Assembly: GCA_013176395.1 (NCBI GenBank)
Contig: JABMLP010000015.1
Location: 930,001 to 994,000, forward strand
Length of the DNA stretch: 64,000 nucleotides
From: Venturia oleaginea
Lineage: Eukaryota > Ascomycota > Dothideomycetes > Venturiales > Venturiaceae
Reading direction: 5' to 3'
In this document: positions 802 through 53,590 of the stretch, piece after piece
How positions within the stretch are numbered: the first letter of the stretch is position 1
How the letters are laid out: each line of letters opens with the position of its first letter
Program-made: the position numbers and the translations under genes
Notes under the pieces: model-generated
Told to the model about the DNA's origin: nothing
The model's database searches: none
What the model saw: the letters and a program-made list of their open reading frames with translations, nothing else

Positions 802-875
802 TTAAGCCGATGAGCCTGCAAAGAACGGCTGCCACGAACAGCGCGCCAAGCCCAAAGTTGCAATCCCCGGGATAG

Positions 876-2991
876 CAAGAATTCAACGGAACTGTAAGGA
901 CGATAGCGGAGAGCCCCATCGGAGGCAGAGCCAGACGATACGATCGAAACTAGACTCGCGAGGGCGTCGGCCAGATGTACCTATAGAGATGGTCCCCAAC
1001 GGAGGAATGCAACGGCAACGGCAACGGCCTCCATCTCTTAGGGTTGATAAACGCCGAACGATCGGACGGCTCAACAATAGTTCAACGGAACTGTAAGATC
1101 GAAAGCGGTGAGCCCCATCGGAGGCAGAGCCAGACGATACGATCGAAACTAGACTCGCGAGGGCGTCGGCCAGATGTACCTATAGAGATGGTCCCCAACG
1201 GAGGAATGCAACGGCAACGGCAACGGCCTCCATCTCTTAGGGTTGATAAACGCCGAACGATCGGACGGCTCAACAATAGTTCAACGGAACTGTAAGATCG
1301 AAAGCGGTGAGCCCCATCGGAGGCAGAGCCAGACGATACGATCGAAACTAGACTCGCGAGAGCGTCGGCCAGATGTACCTATAGAGATGGTCCCCAACGG
1401 AGGAATGCAACGGCAACGGCAACGGCCTCCATCTCTTTAGGGTTGATAAACGCCGAACGATCGGACGGTTCACCAATAGTTCAGCGGAACTGTGAGATCG
1501 AAAACGGTGAGCCCCATCGGAGGCAGAGCTAGACGATACGATCGAAACTAGACTCGAGAGAGGGCGTCGGCCGGATGTACCTATAGAGATGGTCCCCAAC
1601 GGAGGAATGCAACGGCAACGGCAACGGCCTCCATCTCTTTAGGGTTGATAAACGCCGAACGATCGGACAATTCACCAATAGTTCAGCGGAACTGTGAGAT
1701 CGAAAACGGTGAGCCCCATCGGAGGCAGAGCTAGACGATACGATCGAAACTAGACTCGCGAGAGCGTCGGCCAGATGTACCTATAGAGATGGTCCCCAAC
1801 GGAGGAATGCAACGGCAACGGCAACGGCCTCCATCTCTTTAGGGTTGATAAACGCCGAACGATCGGACGGTTCACCAATAGTTCAGCGGAACTGTGAGAT
1901 CGAAAACGGTGAGCCCCATCGGAGGCAGAGCTAGACGATACGATCGAAACTAGACTCGCGAGGGCGTCGGCCAGATGTACCTATAGAGATGGTCCCCAAC
2001 GGAGGAATGCAACGGCAACGGCAACGGCCTCCATCTCTTTAGGGTTGATAAACGCCGAACGATCGGACGGTTCACCAATAGTTCAGCGGAACTGTGAGAT
2101 CGAAAACGGTGAGCCCCATCGGAGGCAGAGCTAGACGATACGATCGAAACTAGACTCGAGAGAGGGCGTCGGCCGGATGTACCTATAGAGATGGTCCCCA
2201 ACGGAGGAATGCAACGGCAACGGCAACGGCCTCCATCTCTTTAGGGTTGATAAACGCCGAACGATCGGACGGTTCACCAATAGTTCAACGGAACTATAAG
2301 ATCGAAAGCGGTGAGCCCCATCGGAGGCAGAGCTAGACGATACGATCGAAACTAGACTCGCGAGGGCGTCGGCCAGATGTACCTATAGAGATGGTCCCCA
2401 ACGGAGGAATGCAACGGCAACGGCAACGGCCTCCATCTCTTTAGGGTTGATAAACGCCGAACGATCGGACGGTTCACCAATAGTTCAACGGAACTGTAAG
2501 ATCGAAAGCGGTGAGCCTCATCGGAGGCAGAGCTAGACGATAAGATCGAAACTAGACTCGAGAGAGGGCGTCGGCCGGATGTACCTATAGAGATGGTCCC
2601 CAACGGAGGAATGCAACGGCAACGGCAACGGCCTCCATCTCTTTAGGGTTGATAAACGCCGAACGATCGGACGGTTCACCAATAGTTCAGCGGAACTGAG
2701 ATCGAAAAAGGTGAGCCCCATCGGAGGCAGCTAGACGATACGATCGAAAACTAGACTCGAGAGAGGGCGTCGGCCGGATATGCCTATAGAGATGGTCCCC
2801 AACGGAGGAATGCAACGGCAACGGCAACGGCCTCCATCTCTTTAGGGTTAATAAAGGCCGAACGATCGGACGGTTCAACAATAGTTCAGCGGAACTGTGA
2901 GATCGAAAGCGGTGAGTCCCATTGGGGGCAGAGCCAGGCGATACGATCAAACTGGACTCGAGAGAGGGCATCGGCCAGGCCGTTAGCCGTA
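876..2991. repeat. Tandem array, ten units of 198-202 bp derived from RNase H
   Basis: The landmark GGTCCCCAACGGAGG recurs at 991, 1190, 1389, 1591, 1791, 1991, 2193, 2393, 2595 and 2793, a spacing of 198-202 bp. It next occurs at 3157, inside the RNase H coding region, 364 bp from the last repeat. Read on the minus strand each unit contains two blocks of the RNase H end fused together: NPKEMEAVAVAFLRWGPSL, then LADAL and the C-terminal stretch ending SQFR. About 160 bp of RNase H coding sequence between these blocks is missing from every unit. Units also carry an expanded GGCAAC hexamer. Longer (202 bp, GAGAGAGGGCG) and shorter (GCGAGGGCG) unit types are mixed. The array lies between the RT-RNase H and recombinase frames. 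Confidence 0.9.
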
Positions 2992-4415
2992 GATGGAAGC
3001 CAGCGGGCTTCGATAACAATATCGCAGGCAGCGGCCTGAGTAACAATAGTGCGGAGATGGGTGTTGCTCTCACCACGAACAGCCTCCTTCGTCAACCCGG
3101 CCACGGCCGTAGAGTTGTCACAGTGGATAACGACCCGATTATGTGCCCAGAGAGACGGTCCCCAACGGAGGAATGCGACGGCAACAGCCTCCATCTCCTT
3201 AGGGTTGATAAACGCCGAACGATTGGACGGTTCAGCAATAAAAGCATGCTCGATTGCGATACTATTGGTGTAATCCCCCCAAGAGACATCGGTCTCAGAG
3301 GACTCGAAAAAGAAGCCGCCGAGGCTTTGTTGTCCGGAGGCATCAGTGAAAAGGTGGAAACAACGGCGCTTTCGATAATCGAAGAAGTAGACCCCGTTGG
3401 TTAGCTCGAGCGCATGGAGCCACCAGAGAAGGTCGTCTCGTACACCGCTAGTCAGGGCTCGGCGAAAGTGCCGATTGACTTCTCCGTATGCTCCGCTCAG
3501 GTAGTCCCAGATCGATCGAGTGTAAACCCGGCCAAGGCGGATGACGGCACTGGCCCAACTGAGCCGCCCGGCGAGGGACTTCGTATCCCGGAGCCGCGGC
3601 CTTGTCTCGGAGAGGTGATCACGGATAGCCTGGATCAAAGAATCTCTCTTCTCGTCGGAGAGACGCAGTTCCAAGCGTACCGTATCAACCAGAAGACCTA
3701 ATATCTCGACGGCCGTGCCGACCACGTCTTTGGCATCCTTGCGAGGAATCCCAAGTCGATCGGTGGTCTTGATCCAGAGTTCCGAAACGCGGTCCGAAAT
3801 TTCTTGAGACGTACACACAAACATAAAATCATCAAGGTAGTGCTCGATCGCGGTAGGGATACTGCGCGTGCCGGCCTGCTCGTCGAGAGCCCAATGGAGA
3901 CCTTCCGCAAAGAGATTGAAGATAAATGGCGCAGTCCTGAGACCGAAAGGGAGGCAGAGTTCTTGATAATTGACGCCGTTGAGGCAAAACCCAAGATACC
4001 GGGACGAAATGAGATCCACAGGGATGTTGCGAAAAGCGTGCGCAATGTCGCGTTTCATCAGAAGACAGCCCCGGCCTGTACGAAGGACGTGCTGAACAAT
4101 TCTGTCGACTCTGGTGTACTGTAGCTTGCCAAACACGCGTGGAATGGCGTCGTTGACTGAAGTTTGGGGCGGCCAAGAGAGGTCGTGGATCCGGCGTAAG
4201 GTTCCGTCTTGTTTTGGGACCATCCCAAGAGGAGCGATAAACAGGCCCGGGTCTGTAGAGATAGCCAATCGGCCGGCGGCCAGCTCCTTCGCAACGTAGC
4301 CCGTAGCTTCGGCTACGGTCGCCTCGTCGGAGAAGTAGTTGTTCGAAACGCCGCGTACGCGAATCGTATGAGGCTCGCGGATCCCGATGGAGGCGCCGTA
4401 CGTGAGTCCGTACTG
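2886..4415 (-). CDS. DIRS-type reverse transcriptase-RNase H
   Basis: The frame is open from a TAA at 4416-4418 down to 2886. The first recognisable residues are LTYGASIGIREPHTIRV, so translation does not have to begin at the internal TTG (4268). RT motifs include FIAPLGMVPKQDGTLR, MKRDIAHAFRNIPV, LPFGLRTAPFIFN and the active site YLDDFMFV. RNase H follows with all expected acidic residues: FTDASG, NPKEMEAVAVA, HCDNSTAV and NGLADALSR. It has no integrase and no aspartic protease, and a tyrosine recombinase lies downstream, so it is DIRS-like and not Gypsy or Copia. The last 30 or so codons are those copied in the adjacent tandem array. The motifs are intact, so the enzyme may still be functional. 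Its 5' end overlaps the preceding frame (see 4313-4760). Confidence 0.8.
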   Translation of the reverse strand, partial: QYGLTYGASIGIREPHTIRVRGVSNNYFSDEATVAEATGYVAKELAAGRLAISTDPGLFIAPLGMVPKQDGTLRRIHDLSWPPQTSVNDAIPRVFGKLQYTRVDRIVQHVLRTGRGCLLMKRDIAHAFRNIPVDLISSRYLGFCLNGVNYQELCLPFGLRTAPFIFNLFAEGLHWALDEQAGTRSIPTAIEHYLDDFMFVCTSQEISDRVSELWIKTTDRLGIPRKDAKDVVGTAVEILGLLVDTVRLELRLSDEKRDSLIQAIRDHLSETRPRLRDTKSLAGRLSWASAVIRLGRVYTRSIWDYLSGAYGEVNRHFRRALTSGVRDDLLWWLHALELTNGVYFFDYRKRRCFHLFTDASGQQSLGGFFFESSETDVSWGDYTNSIAIEHAFIAEPSNRSAFINPKEMEAVAVAFLRWGPSLWAHNRVVIHCDNSTAVAGLTKEAVRGESNTHLRTIVTQAAACDIVIEARWLPSTANGLADALSRVQFDRIAWLCPQWDSPLSISQFR

Positions 4416-31780: not shown

Positions 31781-33195
31781 CACAGGGTTCCTCAAATCTG
31801 ACTGCGCAGGGCGCTCGGACCCACCATCCCATCTCAATTTCCACGTATACACCAACTTATCGCTCAATTTACCACCACCATGGCGCCTAGAACACCCAAA
31901 AGAAAGACTGCATGGCGAGAATATGACACCACGAAGAGAATGCGGTTTTTCAGGCCTGGGATTGCAAGAATGAGGCCGACGGCGTCGGTACAATCGCATA
32001 CCTCCCTGAAATCAATATACCAACTTCTACCGCAGGTAGTTGGCTTAAACTACGAGAACTTATTGGTGATGCAGCATTCAGATCACAGAGAAAGAGCAGT
32101 TGCATCATAGGGCGGCCTACCAAAGTATCTGCTTCAGATCTTACCCGCCTTACGAACCAAGATGACCCATACACGAAAAAGGCTGGCAGGAACAAGCCAA
32201 TTCCTGCCCCGGCAAGCCTTCCGCAAAGACATTACAGCGTCACGTATACAATGCAGGGGCTAGGCGATTCAAGAAGCGTTATCAGAAGCAGATATCCCAG
32301 GCAAATCGGCCAAAGAGGGTTGAATACGGTAAAGAACACGAGAAAAAGACCATACTAGGCTTCTGGGGTTGGATTTGGTTCACAGATGAAGCCCATTTTC
32401 AGTCAAAAGAACTCGCTAATGCACCTGAATATGAGCTACGCTTTCCAGGGCAAGAGAGAGGTGTCAATGAGGAGCTAGAAGGCGTTTTGGATGTTGCTAT
32501 TCACGTCGCCGGCGGCATCTTATACAACAAGAAAGGAAACCTCATATTCTACAAGGATCCGGCTGAGCCATCAGAGAAGGTCCGTAGGCAAGTCAAGCAG
32601 CCTAAACAACTCAAATACGAGCTGGATTCAGTGTACCAAGCCCGGCTGAAAGTCTGGCAAGACCTTAAGGCAAAGGAGGACGAAACACCAAAAGGAAACT
32701 GCATGGCACAGGTTTTCTACGCCAAAAAGATACTGCCGCAACACATTGAAGCTATTCAGGCCTTGGAGAAGCGTCACTAGCGCAAATACTGGCTTCAAGA
32801 GGATAGTGATCCTTCTCACGGAATCAAGTCACCTAACAGTGACCCTGCAGTCATAAAAAGAGAAGCAGACCTTCTATTACTTATTCACCCTCCTCAATCA
32901 TGTGATCTCAATCCCATTGAGTCTTGTTGGAACATCATTAAGTCCAGATTAGCTGGCAGGGGGTGGTCGTCGGTGGCTCATTTCAAGGCTGAAATCCAGG
33001 CAGAATGGGACAAGATAACGCTCACAATGATACGGAAAAGGATCAGAGAGATGCCAGAGAGATTTAAGATGATTCAGCAAAAACCAGAGATCCATTGCAA
33101 GTCAAACGTGTGGTAAATAGCATAATACATTCAAGTTCAAAAGATGGGATGGTGGGTCCGAGCGCCCTGCGCAGTCAGATTTGAGGAACCCTGTG
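31781..33195 (+). mobile_element. mariner-like DNA transposon, copy 1 (1415 bp)
   Basis: The terminal inverted repeats are about 54 bp and near-perfect, starting CACAGGGTTCCTCAAATCTG at 31781 and mirrored at 33142-33195. The element is flanked by GAG on both sides (31778-31780 and 33196-33198), which looks like a 3-bp target duplication, not the TA expected for mariner. It has the same 1415-bp length as copy 2 without its insertion. Confidence 0.9.
31880..33116 (+). pseudogene. DDE transposase of mariner copy 1, defective
   Basis: The ATG at 31880 gives MAPRTPKRKTAWREYDTTKR. The sense then shifts frame near 31945 and again near 32235, as in copy 2. The catalytic part (FTDEAHF; EDSDPSHG; LNPIESCWNIIKS) is that of a Tc1/mariner DDE_3-type transposase. 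A TAG at 32778-32780 replaces the CAG found in copy 2. The shared frameshifts mean both copies come from a defective ancestor, or that splicing I have not resolved is needed. Confidence 0.8.
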
Positions 33196-44537: not shown

Positions 44538-46386
44538 ACGTGTTCCACCACCGAGCTGGTCAGCCCACCGAGCTGGTCAAAAAGGCTTGGCACGACCAAC
44601 TCATGTTACGACTCTTCAATTTAATCGCTATTGACAATAGATTCTAAGTCCGTCGTGCTGCTATCTGATTCAGATGATATCTCGATATCTTTTTTACAAG
44701 TTCGCGCATTATGCCCAGTTGCGCCGCAGTTCCTACAGCGCCGTTGAGTTGGTCGGGCTATTTCTTGACCACCACTACCACGAGCCTTCTTTGATCCCTG
44801 AGGCGCGACAGACGCCTCGGCAGATACCTGCGCTGCTACAGTCCCATACTCTATAGTGCCACCTTGCTGGATCCACTTCCTTTTGCGCCATTTTCGCTTT
44901 GTCATTACTGCCAATTGCTCTTCAAGCTCGCGGTTGCGCGCAACAAGTAGAGCGTTTTGGTGTAGCATCAATTCAGCGCCCTTGACAAGCTGGGAAAAGC
45001 CTGCCTGCGCAGTAACTGGTGACCGAGTAAAGGACTCGCTTACGAGCTTGGATTGGGATCCAAATTCAAGAGTATTGCTTGGAGTCTTCGACTGCCACGG
45101 CGTCTCCTGCGGTGGGGGTGCTGGTGGGGTACGTAGCCGTACTTCAAGGCGATCCAATACCACCTCCGCGTTGATAGGGACTAGCCCTACCATCTCAAAA
45201 GCCTTTCGACCGTTCTCTTCTGTAAACACGTCGAAAAACGCGTCTTTGAAGGCTGGGAGGAAGCCTTCTTTGTTGATATGGTAGACGCGTCGGCATGCCA
45301 AGTCTCGAACTCGTTGAGAGTACTTGCACTTCAACGGCGAGAAGCAGACTACATCAAGCGGCTGGAGGATATGCGATGAATGAGGTGGCATACAGAGCGT
45401 TATGATCTTATGTTCGAGGCAGTAGTCCTTGAAATCCTGGTTGAGATGGCACTCATGGCCGTCCAAGATGAGCAGCCTATACCTCCCCACTTGACGCGCC
45501 TTTGTATACGCGTCAAAGTGCTTCAACCACTCAAGATCAAGCGCGTTGTTTGTCCAGCCGTTCTCAGAGACCGAGAGCTTCCAATTCCGTGGTATATCTG
45601 CCTCCTCATACCACGCAGAGATGTGAACGCGTCCTTTGTAGATAATGAATGGCGGGGTCGCATACCCAGCGGCGCAGATGCTCTGGATAACTGTAACCCA
45701 CTCGCGATCGCCTGGCTGGATCAAATTAGGCCGTGTACGTCTTTCAGAAGCTGTGACGACCTTCATTGACCCAATAACGCCCATCTGGAAGCCAATCTCG
45801 TCAAAGTTGTGCGTATCCTCGTCGTGGATGCCGTACTTTGCCTTAGTGTCTGCAACGAGCTTGAACCACGCGCCAATAATCTCTGGATCTTCCTGTAGTA
45901 TCCTCTGCCTATCCTTAGCTCGATTGAAGGCCATCTTGAGCTCATCTGAGCGCGTTATAAACCTCTCGGCCCAGTTTTTCCCTACTAGCTCTCCAACGCG
46001 TACACCTAGTAGTTTATCCGCCATATCTGCCACCTCACACAGCCGGGGCGCGAATCCTCGCGAATCGAGGTCGAGGATGTATTGGACAATTGTCTGCTCT
46101 TCAGTCGTAGTGACCTTGTGCTGGGCGTTGCGAGTATCTAGGCGATACGTGATTCCGTTGTATCGGCTAGTCAATGTTGAAGGAGGTACATCAAACGCTT
46201 CAGCAGCGCGCCAGAGGCTTCGGAATTGGTGGGTGTTATAGGCAGAAAGGGCAAGCAGAATTCTGCCTTCTCTGTTAGATAATTGCGCATTTTGTTGTTG
46301 AGACATATCGTGTTAATGAGGGAGTTGGTCGTCTTGGCAGAAACTGACCAGCTCGGTGGGTTGACCAGCTCAGTGGTGGAACACGT
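44538..46386 (-). mobile_element. Fot1/pogo-type DNA transposon
   Basis: It is 1849 bp with TA on both sides (44536-44537 and 46387-46388). The inverted ends begin ACGTGTTCCACCACCGAGCT and run about 42 bp with two mismatches. Each end contains two copies of CACCGAGCTGGTCA or its variant, a likely transposase-binding subrepeat. It contains one intact transposase gene. Confidence 0.9.
44621..46306 (-). CDS. Fot1/pogo transposase, intact
   Basis: An uninterrupted 561-residue frame starts at the ATG at 46306 (MSQQQNAQLSNREGRILLA). An N-terminal psq-type helix-turn-helix is followed by a CENP-B-type HTH (TEEQTIVQYILDLDSRG, NWAERFITR). The DDE_1 catalytic core has NFDEIGFQMG, LLILDGHECHLN and HSSHILQPLDVVCFSPLK. 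A CCHC zinc knuckle (RCRNCGATGHNARTC) sits near the C-terminus. No stops or frameshifts were seen, so this copy may be autonomous. It lies inside the older 44249-46783 element. Confidence 0.9.
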   Translation of the reverse strand: MSQQQNAQLSNREGRILLALSAYNTHQFRSLWRAAEAFDVPPSTLTSRYNGITYRLDTRNAQHKVTTTEEQTIVQYILDLDSRGFAPRLCEVADMADKLLGVRVGELVGKNWAERFITRSDELKMAFNRAKDRQRILQEDPEIIGAWFKLVADTKAKYGIHDEDTHNFDEIGFQMGVIGSMKVVTASERRTRPNLIQPGDREWVTVIQSICAAGYATPPFIIYKGRVHISAWYEEADIPRNWKLSVSENGWTNNALDLEWLKHFDAYTKARQVGRYRLLILDGHECHLNQDFKDYCLEHKIITLCMPPHSSHILQPLDVVCFSPLKCKYSQRVRDLACRRVYHINKEGFLPAFKDAFFDVFTEENGRKAFEMVGLVPINAEVVLDRLEVRLRTPPAPPPQETPWQSKTPSNTLEFGSQSKLVSESFTRSPVTAQAGFSQLVKGAELMLHQNALLVARNRELEEQLAVMTKRKWRKRKWIQQGGTIEYGTVAAQVSAEASVAPQGSKKARGSGGQEIARPTQRRCRNCGATGHNARTCKKDIEISSESDSSTTDLESIVNSD

Positions 46387-47387
46387 TATCTATATAAATA
46401 TTAAGCAAATCCTTAGATTTCTTTTTTCTAAAAGAGCTACGGTATGTCACAGGCTATGGCCTAGATTGTGGTTCTCGGCTATGCCCTCAACCTTTGGAAA
46501 CTTCTGGAAGATTCCACAGCCCCACCACCACTGATTATAAAACCATGTATTCTAGTCTTTCTCTCTTTTCTTCAAGTTTGTAATACTCGTCGATCAGGAT
46601 AGTCAATTGAAAAACATATCAACCACGCCTCTCACGCGGTATTCCCCTACCTACTCCTTCTAAAATTATTAAAATCGGTCAAGGATTGAGGTCGTGGTGT
46701 GGCCGTAAAGAAGACGACATTTGGTGAGGAATCGCGAAAAAGTGCTTTCCGGCCCCTGCGCAGTCAATTCTAACACACCCGTGCAGCACAGGGTTCCTCA
46801 AATCTGACTGCGCAGGGCGCTCGGACCCACCATCCCATCTCAATTTCCACGTATACACCAACTTATCGCTCAATTTACCACCACCATGGCGCCTAGAACA
46901 CCCAAAAGAAAGACTGCATGGCGAGAATATGACACCACGAAGAGAATGCGGTTTTTCAGGCCTGGGATTGCAAGAATGAGGCCGACGGCATCGGTACAAT
47001 CGCATACCTCCCTGAAATCAATATACCAACTTCTACCGCAGGTAGTTGGCTTAAACTACGAGAACTTATTGGTGATGCAGCATTCAGATCACAGAGAAAG
47101 AGCAGTTGCATCATAGGGCGGCCTACCAAAGTATCTGCTTCAGATCTTACCCGCCTTACGAACCAAGATGACCCATACACGAAAAAGGCTGGCAGGAACA
47201 AGCCAATTCCTGCCCCGGCAAGCCTTCCGCAAAGACATTACAGCGTCACGTGTACAATGCAGGGGCTAGGCGATTCAAGAAGCGTTATCAGAAGCAGATA
47301 TCCCAGGCAAATCGGCCAAAGAGGGTTGAATACGGTAAAGAACACGAGAAAAAGACCATACTAGGCTTCTGGAGTTGGATTTGGTTC

Positions 47388-47630
47388 TCTATAAATGAAT
47401 GCAGAGTCAAATGGATAATGATAGATGGAATGAAGTAGTAAGTTGGATGCATACTCCTCCATGCTGAGGTATAATGCCTGACTATATACACATAGATAGA
47501 GAAGATTCCAGAAGAGAATGTATGAGATCATTGTCGATCCTAGGTATTGAGTATATGAACTTCACATGATATCAAGACGTTCCCAACCCAAGATGTTTCA
47601 ACAGGACAAATGCCGAAGCCTTCATACACA
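47388..47630 (-). repeat. Left LTR, inverted orientation
   Basis: It is the reverse complement of the right LTR, placing the LTR 3' end at the outer left boundary. It joins inward to an inverted 41-bp gag segment. Confidence 0.88.
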
Positions 47631-47764
47631 CCCTTTTCTTATGATCAGCGATGGACTTATCCACATAGGCCGGCCTGGAGTGCAGAAAAAAGTAGATGAG
47701 GCACTCAAAGATCCAAAGGTTAAGGCCTATGTGTATAAGTCCATCGCTGATCATAAGAAAAGGG
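47631..47764. repeat. 41-bp foldback of gag sequence with 52-nt loop
   Basis: 47631-47671 and 47724-47764 are reverse complements with one mismatch. The right arm is in-frame gag (YKSIADHKKR). The left arm is its inverted copy and is fused directly to the inverted LTR. The fusion point lies at AAAGGG, a sequence present both in gag (47759-47764) and at the polypurine tract (52126-52131). Confidence 0.9.
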
Positions 47765-50700
47765 TGGAAGAAAGAGAAAAGCAGTCGGAATCTCATGATC
47801 AGGATGAATCAAAAGAATCCTCGATGAATAACGTCTACTTTACTACAATACACGAAAAATTACCCAAGCCGACTACAGAGAGTCGTACTAGGCCCGATTC
47901 AGACAATGTATCGAAATCTTTTATCGCTGCAAACGACGAATTTCGATGTGCCGAAATCCTTGAGCCGGTGCCAAACGCGAAACACACACGGTCAATCACG
48001 AAACTGACGCCAGAATTCACCACCTCCCACCAAACAGAATCCGAGAAAGTATCCACATTCAACATATCGGAAGAACCAGAACCCTATTACTTTACAAATG
48101 CATGGGTTCTTGACGGTGGCAGCGAGCGTCATGTATGCAACTCCCCTCTCCGCAATCAATTCACAAAAACTCGTGATGCAGGAAACGGCTCCTATGTACA
48201 GTGCGGCCTCACAAAATACTACATCGAATCGTACGGCAACTGCATCCTCAACGTCAAGCTGCCAGGCGGTGGTACCACGTCATCACTATTACTGATGTTG
48301 CCTTGTGTCCTTACTTCAGGACAAACCTCCTATCCACAGCTAAACTGGAGGCGAAAGGACTTCATCTTATTACCCTTAATGGAGGGTACATGTGCCCTGC
48401 TACGGATGTGACGAAGAAGCTGTACATTCCTACCATGCATAGATCCTATTGGTGCCTTGAATTTAGCCCTCCGACTCATCACAAGTACGTCAAGGATCCA
48501 CGAGAATCCACATACAGTTTCTATACGGAGAAGGAACCTACCAAAAAGGAGATTGCACTCGAAAAGAGACTGACATCCAAGGCCTCAGACGATAGATGGC
48601 ACCTACGCCTTGGCCATCCAGGACCAGAGACCCTCAAGTACCTACCAAAAGCAATACAAGGTGACATTACCGTGTCCTATACACCAACCACTAAGGAATG
48701 CGAAGTCTGTACCATCTCCAAGGCCCAGCAAAAGATCAGCCGTTCGGAGTTCAAGGAACATCCCTCCACAAGGCCTTTTCAACGCCTACATTTCGATCTT
48801 ATTCCTATGCCAGTGGCCTACAATGGCCACAAGTATATCTCTCATTTTTCGTGCGACTTCTGCGACTTCATCTTCAACTTCACACACAAAAGAAAGAGCG
48901 AATGTGTGCAATGCTTCATTTACGTCATAAACCTCATTAAAACTCAGTGGGGCCTTGACGTTCAATTCTTTCATTCAGACGGAGAAACCTCTTTCGGTAA
49001 AGAAGATACACAAAACAACATATTCTGGGAGACTGTGCACATATGAGGCATTATTGTAGAGACCTCTGCACCTCGTACACAGGCTCAGAATGGTGGTTCC
49101 GAAATCATTGGGCGATGGGTTGTCGCTAAAATGCGAACACTCCGTACTCAATCCGGCCAGCCTCAAAAGTGTTTGGCCGGAAAGAGCCCTTGCAGTTGCA
49201 GCCATCAGCAATAGGATCCCTATCCTCAAAAATGGCTGGAAGTCACCATACGAGGTAGTCTGGCAAGCCAAACCAGTCATCTTTCATCTCGTCGTCTACG
49301 GAGCCAAGGCATGCCCCCTGAACAAGTCAATTCCAAAGCTGGATCGAGAGAATCCTCGTGCATTCATTGGCTACATGGTGGGCTATGAAGGCACAGGAAT
49401 TTACAGGGTTTGGATACCCTCACAGAGTAAGGTGATTCGTACTCGAGATGTCGTCCTTGACGAGGATGACCATGTGTATGACCCAGCTGAAATTGACGCC
49501 GCAATCATGTTTCCTGAACATATTGAGACACATTTAGTCATCAAGCCACTACCCCAGGTGCAATACGACTGGATATGTCCGCAATTGAGCTCTCCGACAA
49601 CACAGCAGACACAGCAGAAATGATAATTCAGTCTCCTACCCTCGAATCTACTGAATTCAGTAATGACGACTTTGCAACACTAAGGCGAGGCTCTACTGCC
49701 TCCACCGAAGAAGATGAGGAGGATTCCTCATCAAAGGGTGGAGATACGGTGATCGGCAGCCTCATACAGTCTCATCCTACGGAATATACGCCATCTGCAA
49801 TGTCACCAACTCCTCAAAGGGTGACAAAGCCACCAAGAGCACCCCCAGGGGCGGCCTCAAGGACAGCATCAAGAGCCACATCAGCAACATCCTCTCGATT
49901 GTCGTCAGCCCCAGCATCCACAGCCTCATCCGCATCCGGTAAAGCCAAGGCTAAGGTAAAGCCTAGCTACTCATACACCAAAGAGGCTCCTAAAAAGGAA
50001 ATCTCCAGCGAAAACGTACCAGTTTACGAGGGTCGCACACGAGGTGATAGGAAGAAACAGGGTCCGGCTGGATCTAGCCTATACACCACATTTGAGGATG
50101 CATCTGATTGGAACTCCGCATTCAGTGCTTTCATCACATCAGTCAAACAGCATCGTGATAACCTTCCACCGGTACCAGAATCCTACGAGGAAGCCAAACT
50201 CCATCCTCTGTGGCCACAGTGGCTAGAAGCTATGCTCACCGAGATCCAGCATTGCAAAAAGAAAGGTGTTTTCAAGGAAGTCTCCCATATCAAGAATATG
50301 ACTCCCAGACCCCTACCTTTGAAGTGGGTTTACACGTACAAATTCGACGGCAATGGCTACCTCATTCGACTCAAAGCACGACTGTGTGTGCGAGGAGACA
50401 AACAACCACTCAATAGCATGGATACCTATGCTGCAACCCTGGCATCAGAAGTTATGCGATTCTTACTCGCTATGGCAGCACACTTTGACCTTGAAATGAC
50501 TCAATACGATGCCGTCACCGCATTCCTGAACGCTCACCTTGACGAGACGGTCTACACATAATTACCACCAGGTTTCGGCAAGAAAGGACAACTTTGGCTC
50601 CTAATGATGGCCCTATACGGTCTCCGAAGATCGCCACATCTCTGGCACAACGAATTCTCATCATTTCTGCAATCCTTAGGACTCATGCCTATTCCAGGAG

Positions 50701-51989
50701 TCAATTGTCTCTACCATAATGAATGGCTCATCGTCTTCTTCTTTGTAGATGACATCATATGCCTCTACCGCAGCAAAGATGAGTTCCAATTCAAACAATT
50801 TGAGGCTAGATTATCGGCTAAATACGAGCTACGCTTCATGGGAAGACCAGAGTACTTTCTGGGCATCAGGATCACTCGAAATCGAGAGAAGCAAACCATC
50901 ACGCTGTGCCAAGACGCCTACATCGACAAGATGGTCAAGAAGTTTCAATCCTCTATGCTACCACATAAGGTATTCACTCCTCTTCCACCAGGGAAGCTTG
51001 CATTATACGAGGGCCAGGCCTCAGATTCTCAAATCCGAGAGATGCAAGAGAAAGTCGGCCATTTAGGTCATGCCGCACACATTACTAGGCCCGATATCGC
51101 CTACGCAACCTCTCATTTGGCAGAATTTCAGAAGAATCTCTTGAATGATACACAGTGAAAAGATGAGGAGGATTAAGGATTGCATGAGGTTCATAATGAA
51201 CCGGTGACCGAGCGATAGTTATACAGATGTGATTGCTTTGAAATCAAAAGACGGGTACATGATTCCGACGGCTGTATGCCACCGATATTCACTTCGCGGC
51301 TAACTGAAATTGTGGTATCATCCAACAGCGGCTGTATCATCTAACAGAATCCGTCCCCTGCCCACTTGAATGCCGTCAACCACTGCATGTCCTACCTTAG
51401 GGACCACAAGAATCTCGCTATTCAGTACTCAGGGCCAGGTCTCTTAACCCCCGACTGCCACCTATCTCATGTCTCCACTGATGCATCATTTGTGGACGAC
51501 CTCAACACCAGAAAGTCTCGCCAAGGCTTCCTGTTGATGCTCGCCGGCGGCCCAATTGCATGGAAGGCCATAAAGCAAAAAACTGTTACGACATCCAGCA
51601 CAGAAGCCGAGTTGCTGGCGGCCTCATACTGCGGCAAGGAAGTCATCTGGTGGAAGAGATTCTTCGCTGCAATCGGATTCCACCTGTGAAAGGATCTCAC
51701 TATCAAGTGCGATAACCAGATGAATATCAGGTTATTAACATCAGAAACGCCCGAACTCACCACCAAACTGCGCCATGTGGACATACATCACCACTTCCTA
51801 CGCCAAGAAATCCTTGCCAAGAGACTCACCAATGAGAATCTACCCACTCAAATCATGCCAGCTGATGGCCTCACAAAAGGATTCACACGTCAACAACAAG
51901 AGAATTTCATTCTACTTCTCAGTTTGGTCAAAATCGAACTTAAAACTAGCCAGGGCGCGGCACCATTGGAGGTACAATCGGAGGATTGA
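47672..51989 (+). pseudogene. copia gag-pol remnants
   Basis: Gag C-terminus and protease region (WVLDGGSERHVCN, with DGG in place of the usual DSGA) run from 47672 to 48320. Integrase follows in another frame: the GAG-pre-integrase motif RWHLRLGHPG, the zinc-binding CEVCTISK, FHSDGETSF, and an in-frame TGA at 49044-49046. Frame breaks occur near 49140. RT has LPLKWVYTYKFDG, FDLEMTQYDAVTAFLNA, a TAA at 50560-50562 (in CAA position before LPPGFGKKG), and the active site FFFVDDIICL. RNase H has DASFVDDLNTRKSRQGF and KTVTTSSTEAELLA, with a TGA near 51687. An LTR-like insertion separates RT from RNase H. The element cannot encode a complete polyprotein. Confidence 0.85.
51156..51347 (-). repeat. 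Solo-LTR-like insertion in copia pol
   Basis: 192 bp separate the in-frame codons of the RT end (LLNDTQ) and the RNase H start (NPSPAHLNAVNHC). On the minus strand it begins TGTTAGATGATACAGCCGCT and ends TCTTTTCA, so it has TG...CA ends like an LTR. Flanks CACAG (left) and AACAG (right) may be an imperfect 5-bp duplication; exact borders are ambiguous. Confidence 0.55.
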
Positions 51990-52131
51990 ACGGAAGCGAT
52001 TGGTACCATAATCGCGAAAGTACATTATCCCAAGTGGGGCTAGCTCCCCTGCATATGGTCTTTCTTTTCACACTCATTTAAAGCCTCAGTTACCAGTTTC
52101 TTCACTCATTATCGCTCAAAAACCGAAAGGG

Positions 52132-52374
52132 TGTGTATGAAGGCTTCGGCATTTGTCCTGTTGAAACATCTTGGGTTGGGAACGTCTTGATATCATGTGA
52201 AGTTCATATACTCAATACCTAGGATCGACAATGATCTCATACATTCTCTTCTGGAATCTTCTCTATCTATGTGTATATAGTCAGGCATTATACCTCAGCA
52301 TGGAGGAGTATGCATCCAACTTACTACTTCATTCCATCTATCATTATCCATTTGACTCTGCGTTCATTTATAGA
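52132..52374 (+). repeat. Right LTR of copia element
   Basis: It starts TGTGTATGAAGG after a purine tract and ends ATTTATAGA next to target duplication GGTTC. It is 243 bp, the same length as the inverted left LTR. Confidence 0.85.
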
Positions 52375-53196
52375 GGTTCACAGATGAAGCCCATTTTCAG
52401 TCAAAAGAGCTCGCCAATGCTCCTGAATATGAGCTACGCTTTCCAGGGCAAGAGAGAGGTGTCAATGAGGAGCTAGAAGGCGTTTTGGATGTTGCTATTC
52501 ACGTCGCCGGCGGCATCTCATACAACAGGAAAGGAGACCTCATATTCTACAAGGATCCGGCTGAGCCATCAGAGAAGGTCCGTAGGCAAGTCAAGCAGCC
52601 TAAACAACTCAAATACGAGCTGGATTCAGTGTACCAAGCCCGGCTGAAAGTCTGGCAAGACCTTAAGGCAAAGGAGGACGAAACACCAAAAGGAAACTGC
52701 ATGGCACAGGTTTTCTACGCCAAAAAGATACTGCCGCAACACATCGAAGCTATTCAGGCCTTGGAGAAGCGTCACCAGCGCAAATACTGGCCTCAAGAGG
52801 ATGGTGATCCTTCTCACGGAATCAAGTCACCTAACAGTGACCCTGCAGTCATAAAAAGAGAAGCAGACTTTCTATTACTTATTCACCCTCCTCAATCATG
52901 TGATCTCAATCCCATTGAGTCTTGTTGGAACATCATTAAGTCCAGATTAGCTGGCAGGAGGTGGTCGTCGGTGGCTCATTTCAAGGCTGAAATCCAGGCA
53001 GAATGGGACAAGATCACGCTCACAATGATACGGAAAAGGATCAGAGAGATGCCAGAGAGATTTAAGATGATTCAGCAAAAACCAAAGATCCATTGCGAGT
53101 CAAACGTGTGGTAAATAGCATAATACATTCAAGTTCAAAAAATGGGATGGTGGGTCCGAGCGCCCTGCGCAGTCAGATTTCAGGAACCCTGTGCAG

Positions 53197-53590
53197 CAGG
53201 ACGTTGCTTAGTAAGATACCTCCTATAAGATCTAGACTCTGGCGATGCGGAGAGTAACCTTTGCTCTTCGACCACCTCCATGACCCACCAGTCACACAAA
53301 CGGAGTCACACAAACGGATCTATCTGGATGTCGTCTGCGGCTTTACCTGGCAGCAGTTATCGCTTTCTGACCACAACCATGTGATCATGTTTGGTGGTGT
53401 TGCCGACGTAGTGTTGAGACTTGACTTCGAACTTCTTCTTCGCGATTCCAGCACCACTATTCAACATCAACACCTGCATTCTTTCTGTTACCCACCTCAA
53501 TACTTCATCCGATTCTCTTGCCGTTACTGAATCCGTCAATATGACAAGAACTCAGCTTTAGGTAAGGCTAATAGTAGCTCCAGTTTCTAG
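53197..53590. other. Intergenic, no gene seen
   Basis: DNA between the transposon nest and the first coiled-coil gene. No supported frame. Confidence 0.4.

Follow-up and report, generated by a model that had tools for sequence, protein, structure and literature searches.

A Copia insertion with inverted long terminal repeats in Venturia oleaginea, probably derived from a folded-back reverse transcript

How can a Copia retrotransposon whose long terminal repeats (LTRs) are inverted come to lie in a chromosome between the two halves of a normal target-site duplication (TSD)? This question is raised by a Copia-derived insertion of 4,987 bp at positions 47388-52374 of a 64,000-nucleotide stretch of the Venturia oleaginea genome (assembly GCA_013176395.1, contig JABMLP010000015.1, positions 930,001 to 994,000 of the forward strand; hereafter the window). 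The junctions of this insertion lead us to regard it as very probable that a Copia reverse transcript primed its own synthesis in gag, switched into U3 and was then integrated normally via two U5 ends.

Structure of the insertion and its target site

The insertion is carried by one copy (copy 2) of a Tc1/mariner-type DNA transposon, and its limits are exactly those given in a preliminary description of this DNA. The following features were identified.

46782..53198, plus strand: Tc1/mariner-type DNA transposon copy 2, carrier of the insertion, with 57-nt terminal inverted repeats (DDE_3, E 2.3e-6, 28.0 bits against a cut-off of 28.6)
47383..47387: left TSD, GGTTC
47388..47628, minus strand: inverted LTR, 241 bp, U5 outermost
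47629..47671, minus strand: inverted gag piece, 43 nt, abutting the inverted LTR at its U3 edge (47724-47766 in reverse complement, 1 mismatch)
47672..47723, plus strand: sense-gag spacer, 52 nt, the putative fold-back loop
47724..47766, plus strand: sense 43 nt of gag, ending in AAAGGGTG (47759-47766), the proposed switch point to the LTR
47672..52125, plus strand: internal region, gag minus its 5' part and then pol, in Copia order
48537..48722, plus strand: GAG-pre-integrase, PF13976 (E 2.9e-6, 27.4 bits, under the cut-off of 28.4)
49267..49473, plus strand: retroviral polymerase SH3-like domain, PF25597 (E 1.4e-13)
50283..50948, plus strand: Copia-type reverse transcriptase RVT_2, PF07727 (two matched pieces with a stop between them)
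51139..51346, minus strand: nested solo LTR of another family, 208 bp (TSD GAATC by eye; strand deduced from primer-site positions)
52126..52133, plus strand: AAAGGGTG, the end of the polypurine tract (PPT) adjoining U3; also found in gag (47759-47766)
52134..52374, plus strand: sense LTR, 241 bp, U5 outermost
52375..52379: right TSD, GGTTC
32377..32381: empty site GGTTC in mariner copy 1

The two LTRs differ at 1 of 241 positions (mismatch at 52362) and are spanned by slightly longer inverted arms (47387-47636 and 52126-52375). The preliminary description had their inverted orientation right; the length of 243 bp that it gave is corrected here to 241 bp. The U5 end TCTATAAATGAA is outermost at both termini of the insertion.

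The genome search envisaged in that description, using the LTR and the gag/inverted-LTR junction as queries, was run on the window's own genome (46.1 Mb in 61 contigs, labelled C1, C5 and so on), and the junction proved to be single. For the LTR, the best 40 of 58 candidates were scored and the copy counts are therefore lower bounds. The 40 matches listed comprise the window's own two LTRs, 11 near-full copies (91–97% identity) and 27 partial matches to related LTRs. All 11 near-full sisters (L003-L013) are solo LTRs with 5-bp TSDs, perfect in nine cases and matching at 4/5 positions in two; they start with TGTATG (10/11) or TATATG (one) and end with TATAGA (10/11) or TACAGA (one). Because these edges match, the outer edge of the insertion is the true U5 edge on both sides, which bears out the claim that the same LTR end occupies both termini. 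CA is the usual LTR terminus; the sister solo LTRs end in GA in 11 of 11 cases and have a TG start in 10.

When the two flanks of the insertion are put together, they align with mariner copy 1 (31776 onward) with no gap across the insertion point, and that copy has a single GGTTC there. The precise GGTTC duplication and the empty site that had been noticed earlier are thus both upheld, and together they indicate that the whole unit entered in one integration event. The mariner copy outside the insertion is unbroken. By eye, the right LTR is flanked by GGGTG on its left and GGTTC on its right, and the left LTR by GGTTC and CACCC. Having no TSD of its own, the right LTR is not an unrelated later insertion, a possibility that the preliminary description had left to be checked, and the same reasoning led us to reject either LTR as a separate arrival. 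Recombination between two elements was rejected on the single matching TSD pair and the empty site. The internal frames are broken by frameshifts, stops and the nested LTR; the LTR pair and the gag 43-mer combined differ at 2 of 284 positions, and pol nonetheless carries several frame breaks.

Copia ancestry and the probable fold-back at the left end

On the plus strand the domains follow the order GAG-pre-integrase (just below its cut-off), SH3_retrovirus and RVT_2, which is the Copia order, with the integrase region upstream of the reverse transcriptase. Compared with Ty1/Copia elements in general, the window copy has the 5-bp TSD but neither direct LTRs nor a primer site beside the 5' LTR, the latter having been lost with the 5' gag. 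Lacking direct LTRs, it is no standard Copia element but derives from one by rearrangement.

Relatives elsewhere in the genome point the same way. In the relative on C30 the LTRs are direct (97% over 182 bp), the flanks match (CGATT) and the primer site GTTATGAGCCCGG comes right behind the 5' LTR. The relative on C59 shares this primer site and has a pair of LTR pieces on the same strand, the left of which is incomplete and lies 7 kb from the coding part. Given the direct LTRs on C30 and the same-strand pieces on C59, the window copy is the rearranged one. The primer binding site is present in the C30, C59 and C5 relatives, and occurs 174 times in the genome as against 0 times in a reversed control; we take it to fit the anticodon arm of the initiator tRNA-Met, comparable to the half-tRNA priming of copia and Ty5. 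The stretches around three further gag/pol pieces, at C34:20614 and C8:50970 (93–94%) and at C56:1025775 (97%), contain none of this LTR. The loci of the first two, the gag pieces in L082 (C34:19114-22825) and L083 (C8:49470-53181), share the same surroundings (98% over 3.5 kb).

The left end of the window copy is where its structure departs from these relatives. Here there is no 5' LTR, no primer site and no 5' gag, and since the gag of L035 (C30) and L041 (C59) continues upstream of the point where the window copy turns around, these parts were lost. The inverted gag 43-mer differs from the sense 43-mer at 1 of 43 positions and is separated from it by 52 nt. The passage from this inverted piece into the LTR falls on the 8-nt word AAAGGGTG, common to gag and to the PPT/LTR (U3) boundary. 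Counting the actual switch point, 4 of 4,327 internal sense positions have at least 8 nt of homology to this acceptor; for antisense positions the figure is 1 of 4,327, and random junctions within the window reach 8 nt at a rate of 1e-4. The differences between the arms (1/241 and 1/43) fit copies made in one round. The end structure, the TSD, the empty site, the inverted gag piece and the switch homology are all present in the sequence. The inverted gag piece and the switch homology, like the nested solo LTR at 51139-51346, were absent from the preliminary description.

In the route that we propose, minus-strand DNA synthesis would have proceeded from the 3' LTR through pol into gag, where the 3' end would have folded back, primed itself and copied 43 nt of gag. 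The new strand may then have jumped to the PPT/U3 boundary via the 8-nt AAAGGGTG, either on the minus strand's own 5' part or on a co-packaged sister, and run through U3-R-U5 to the end. Made double-stranded, the molecule would have had a U5 end at each terminus, and integrase would have joined both to the mariner copy with the usual 5-bp stagger. We infer the order of these steps, the strand copied, the use of one molecule or two, second-strand synthesis and the role of integrase. One-piece integration of a rearranged snap-back cDNA through two identical ends had already been suggested in the preliminary description, and that reading fits every junction. A fold-back in a related family, at C5:231956-233807, lends it further support.

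Several points weigh against this route. The rearrangement seen in the window is known from one copy only, and its structure depends on an assembly taken on trust. The domain scan gave no match to rve (the integrase core) among the broken element pieces. That a Copia integrase can work with two U5 ends is deduced from the structure, and the conversion of a folded single strand into linear double-stranded DNA is a proposed step. At the apex of the fold-back the sequence reads GGCC and then GGCC again, so that an overlap of 0 to 4 nt can be claimed, depending on the parent gag sequence at that place. If the parent gag read GGCCGGCC at the apex, the fold-back would be templated.

The tandem GGCC, with no proven long homology, would also suit an origin that we consider unlikely, in which two shortened cDNAs (gag-pol-LTR and a short gag-LTR deletion product) were end-joined head to head before integration. 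End joining of the cDNA ends of LTR elements is known for circles, according to PMC9694575. However, such joining requires two separate defective molecules whose gag breaks lie merely 52 nt apart, which a fold-back gives unaided, and the C5 copy has a comparable anatomy with a 245-nt spacer. That the relatives have direct LTRs, clearly on C30 and as judged from LTR pieces on C59, would agree with a direct-LTR copy that integrated first and had its left end inverted or replaced later by inversion, gene conversion or break repair. This we hold to be very improbable: the break would have had to fall exactly between TSD and LTR and leave the U5 edge flush with GGTTC, and the same events must also have deleted the primer site and 5' gag and added an inverted 43 nt with 8-nt switch homology.

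An artefact of assembly or library preparation, in the form of a chimeric inversion, has a similarly slight chance. The assembly is the single source from which the structure is read, and inverted repeats are typical chimera products, but the outer TSD with its empty site, the single mismatch per arm pair and the unbroken mariner copy outside argue against it. The least credible of these alternatives is autointegration, in which the cDNA ends would attack the element's own gag to give an inverted-LTR form. Inverting autointegration should leave 5-bp internal repeats at the LTR/internal junctions and no free U5 pair. Instead, an 8-nt word common to both partners marks the junction at the PPT/U3 edge, with an inverted 43-nt copy beside it, and a 5-bp internal duplication at the LTR/gag junction, looked for at the junctions, was not found. 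Autointegration is reported, as circles, for the LTR elements of one fungus (PMC9694575).

Other inverted copies and candidates, and their possible persistence

The preliminary description had also raised the idea that the inverted form is itself mobile as a palindrome-ended element. For this copy the idea found no support, as none of the other genomic matches crosses the window's gag/inverted-LTR junction (27/27 candidates scored). A wider claim is that several Copia families in this genome regularly produce snap-back cDNAs, that integrase can still insert them and that the resulting copies outlast ordinary ones. We regard this claim as possible, with the balance somewhat against it. Beyond the view of the preliminary description, the same genome holds at least one other inverted-LTR Copia copy, on C5, and two candidates, on C9 and C1.

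The C5 copy (C5:231956-233807; L020, L019) belongs to a related family. Its arms align at 99.6% over 764 nt and contain LTR, primer site and gag, with a spacer of 245 nt between them. An 81-nt stretch of inverted U5 at the left edge gives outer ends of one U5 and one U3. The fold point, compared by eye with the native relative at C9:999490, has 2 nt of strict homology, and the interior is matched elsewhere only at 83–87%. The flanks, CTTAC and CTTAA, agree at 4/5 positions, which counts against the wider claim.

The C9 candidate (C9:828993-832848; L096, L097), from another Copia LTR family, has identical inverted arms of at least 508 bp with U3 edges outward. The next best copy of its LTR is at 96%, with no further copy between among the best 40 of 235 candidates. 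It has no TSD at its outer edges (TATAT and GTTTC by eye, assuming a TG start), which again tells against the wider claim. In the C1 candidate (C1:517140-518541; L098, L099), inward-facing primer sites lie 1.3 kb apart in identical 121-bp surroundings; the comparison covers 121 bp per side and a C13 copy is also 100% identical there, a further point against. By coordinates, this family includes four same-strand pairs, on C18, C13, C60 and at C1:1556769/1562045.

Primer sites give another view of such pairs. Among the first 100 of the 174 sites, neighbours no more than 4 kb apart are inward-facing in 3 cases, outward in 0 and same-strand in 2, which are small numbers. The 91 sites that have a leading G were inspected by eye in full; their inward pairs within 4 kb are those on C5 and C9, and outward pairs number 0.

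Three inverted pairs, recognised by their coordinates, in which the second LTR is incomplete were left out of the count of inverted elements. Those at C30:46120/46791 and its near-identical twin C6:56490/57161 were rejected since each includes a complete solo LTR flanked by a TSD of its own (CTGCT). The pair at C34:38766/49083, 10.3 kb apart, was rejected since it includes, on its right, a solo LTR with TGTAT at both flanks (by eye). The surroundings of the C30 and C6 pairs, L029 (C30:44719-47855) and L030 (C6:55089-58225), form a recent duplication between contigs, with 99.97% identity along 3,137 bp. At C16:1069653-1070110, to judge from match coordinates alone, adjoining LTR pieces point in opposite directions and a primer site comes next. 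Inverted repeats also lie near the LTR copies L007, L012 (350 nt, 99%) and L052 (463 nt, 99%).

Direct LTR pairs can recombine to a solo LTR, whereas inverted pairs cannot, so inverted copies might outlast ordinary ones. Among the listed copies of the window's LTR family, the inverted one alone combines LTR and interior; the 11 others are solo. This pattern fits survivorship, as a single case.

The window copy would be evidence from a chromosome that a reverse transcript whose ends are both U5 can integrate with a normal target duplication. If this is true, one kind of LTR end would suffice for the integrase in this Copia group, and a single step could turn an LTR retrotransposon into an insertion that ends in inverted repeats. 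Such a class would escape searches built on direct LTRs; pairs of inward-facing primer sites offer an easy way to look for it.

Within the insertion, the nested solo LTR is a later arrival, 97–100% like 36 other copies among the matches listed. Its family forms six same-strand pairs 1.67–1.97 kb apart, several of them beside the same primer site, an arrangement suggestive of a short non-autonomous element. Beside the mariner copy, a 563-aa open frame on the minus strand (window 44621-46312) resembles by eye a pogo/Fot1-type transposase, and a repeat array with a period of about 200 bp occupies window positions 839-3240.

Comparison with known systems

In self-primed hairpin retroviral DNA and in internal proviral inversions, a nascent strand folds back and synthesis resumes. 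The window copy resembles these cases in its proposed nascent-strand fold-back followed by resumed synthesis. A chromosomal LTR retrotransposon that combines two U5 ends with a TSD is not known to us. A literature search for inverted LTRs yielded nothing of this kind by title or abstract; subscription papers were mostly outside its coverage, so this is no proof that the form is unpublished.

DIRS-like elements have, to our knowledge, no target-site duplication. According to PMC5633606, DIRS-1 possesses a tyrosine recombinase together with an internal complementary region, and it is believed to rely on circles. The window copy shares with it a coding region between inverted LTRs, but has Copia domains and a 5-bp TSD. 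Seven element pieces that were scanned gave no match to a recombinase family at E up to 0.001 (3 of 7 were without any match). The LTR pair and the gag 43-mer are the sole repeats of at least 25 nt inside the element, and an internal complement to the LTR of that length is absent. DIRS membership was rejected on the TSD, the absence of a recombinase match and the absence of an internal complementary region. Autointegration products and 2-LTR circles, as presented in PMC9694575, are likewise abnormal cDNA products of the same replication cycle; unlike the window copy, which is chromosomal and has a TSD, they are extrachromosomal circles.

The nearest precedent found is that of the grass Copia template-switch complexes (Sabot and Schulman, 2007; PMC1950507). 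These consist of two fused genomes with three LTRs, two core sequences and a 5-bp TSD. They have in common with the window copy an aberrant template switching by reverse transcriptase and integration as one unit with a 5-bp TSD. The window copy differs in its two inverted LTRs, single core, U5 at both ends and gag fold-back, and no word beginning with 'invert' occurs in the text of PMC1950507.

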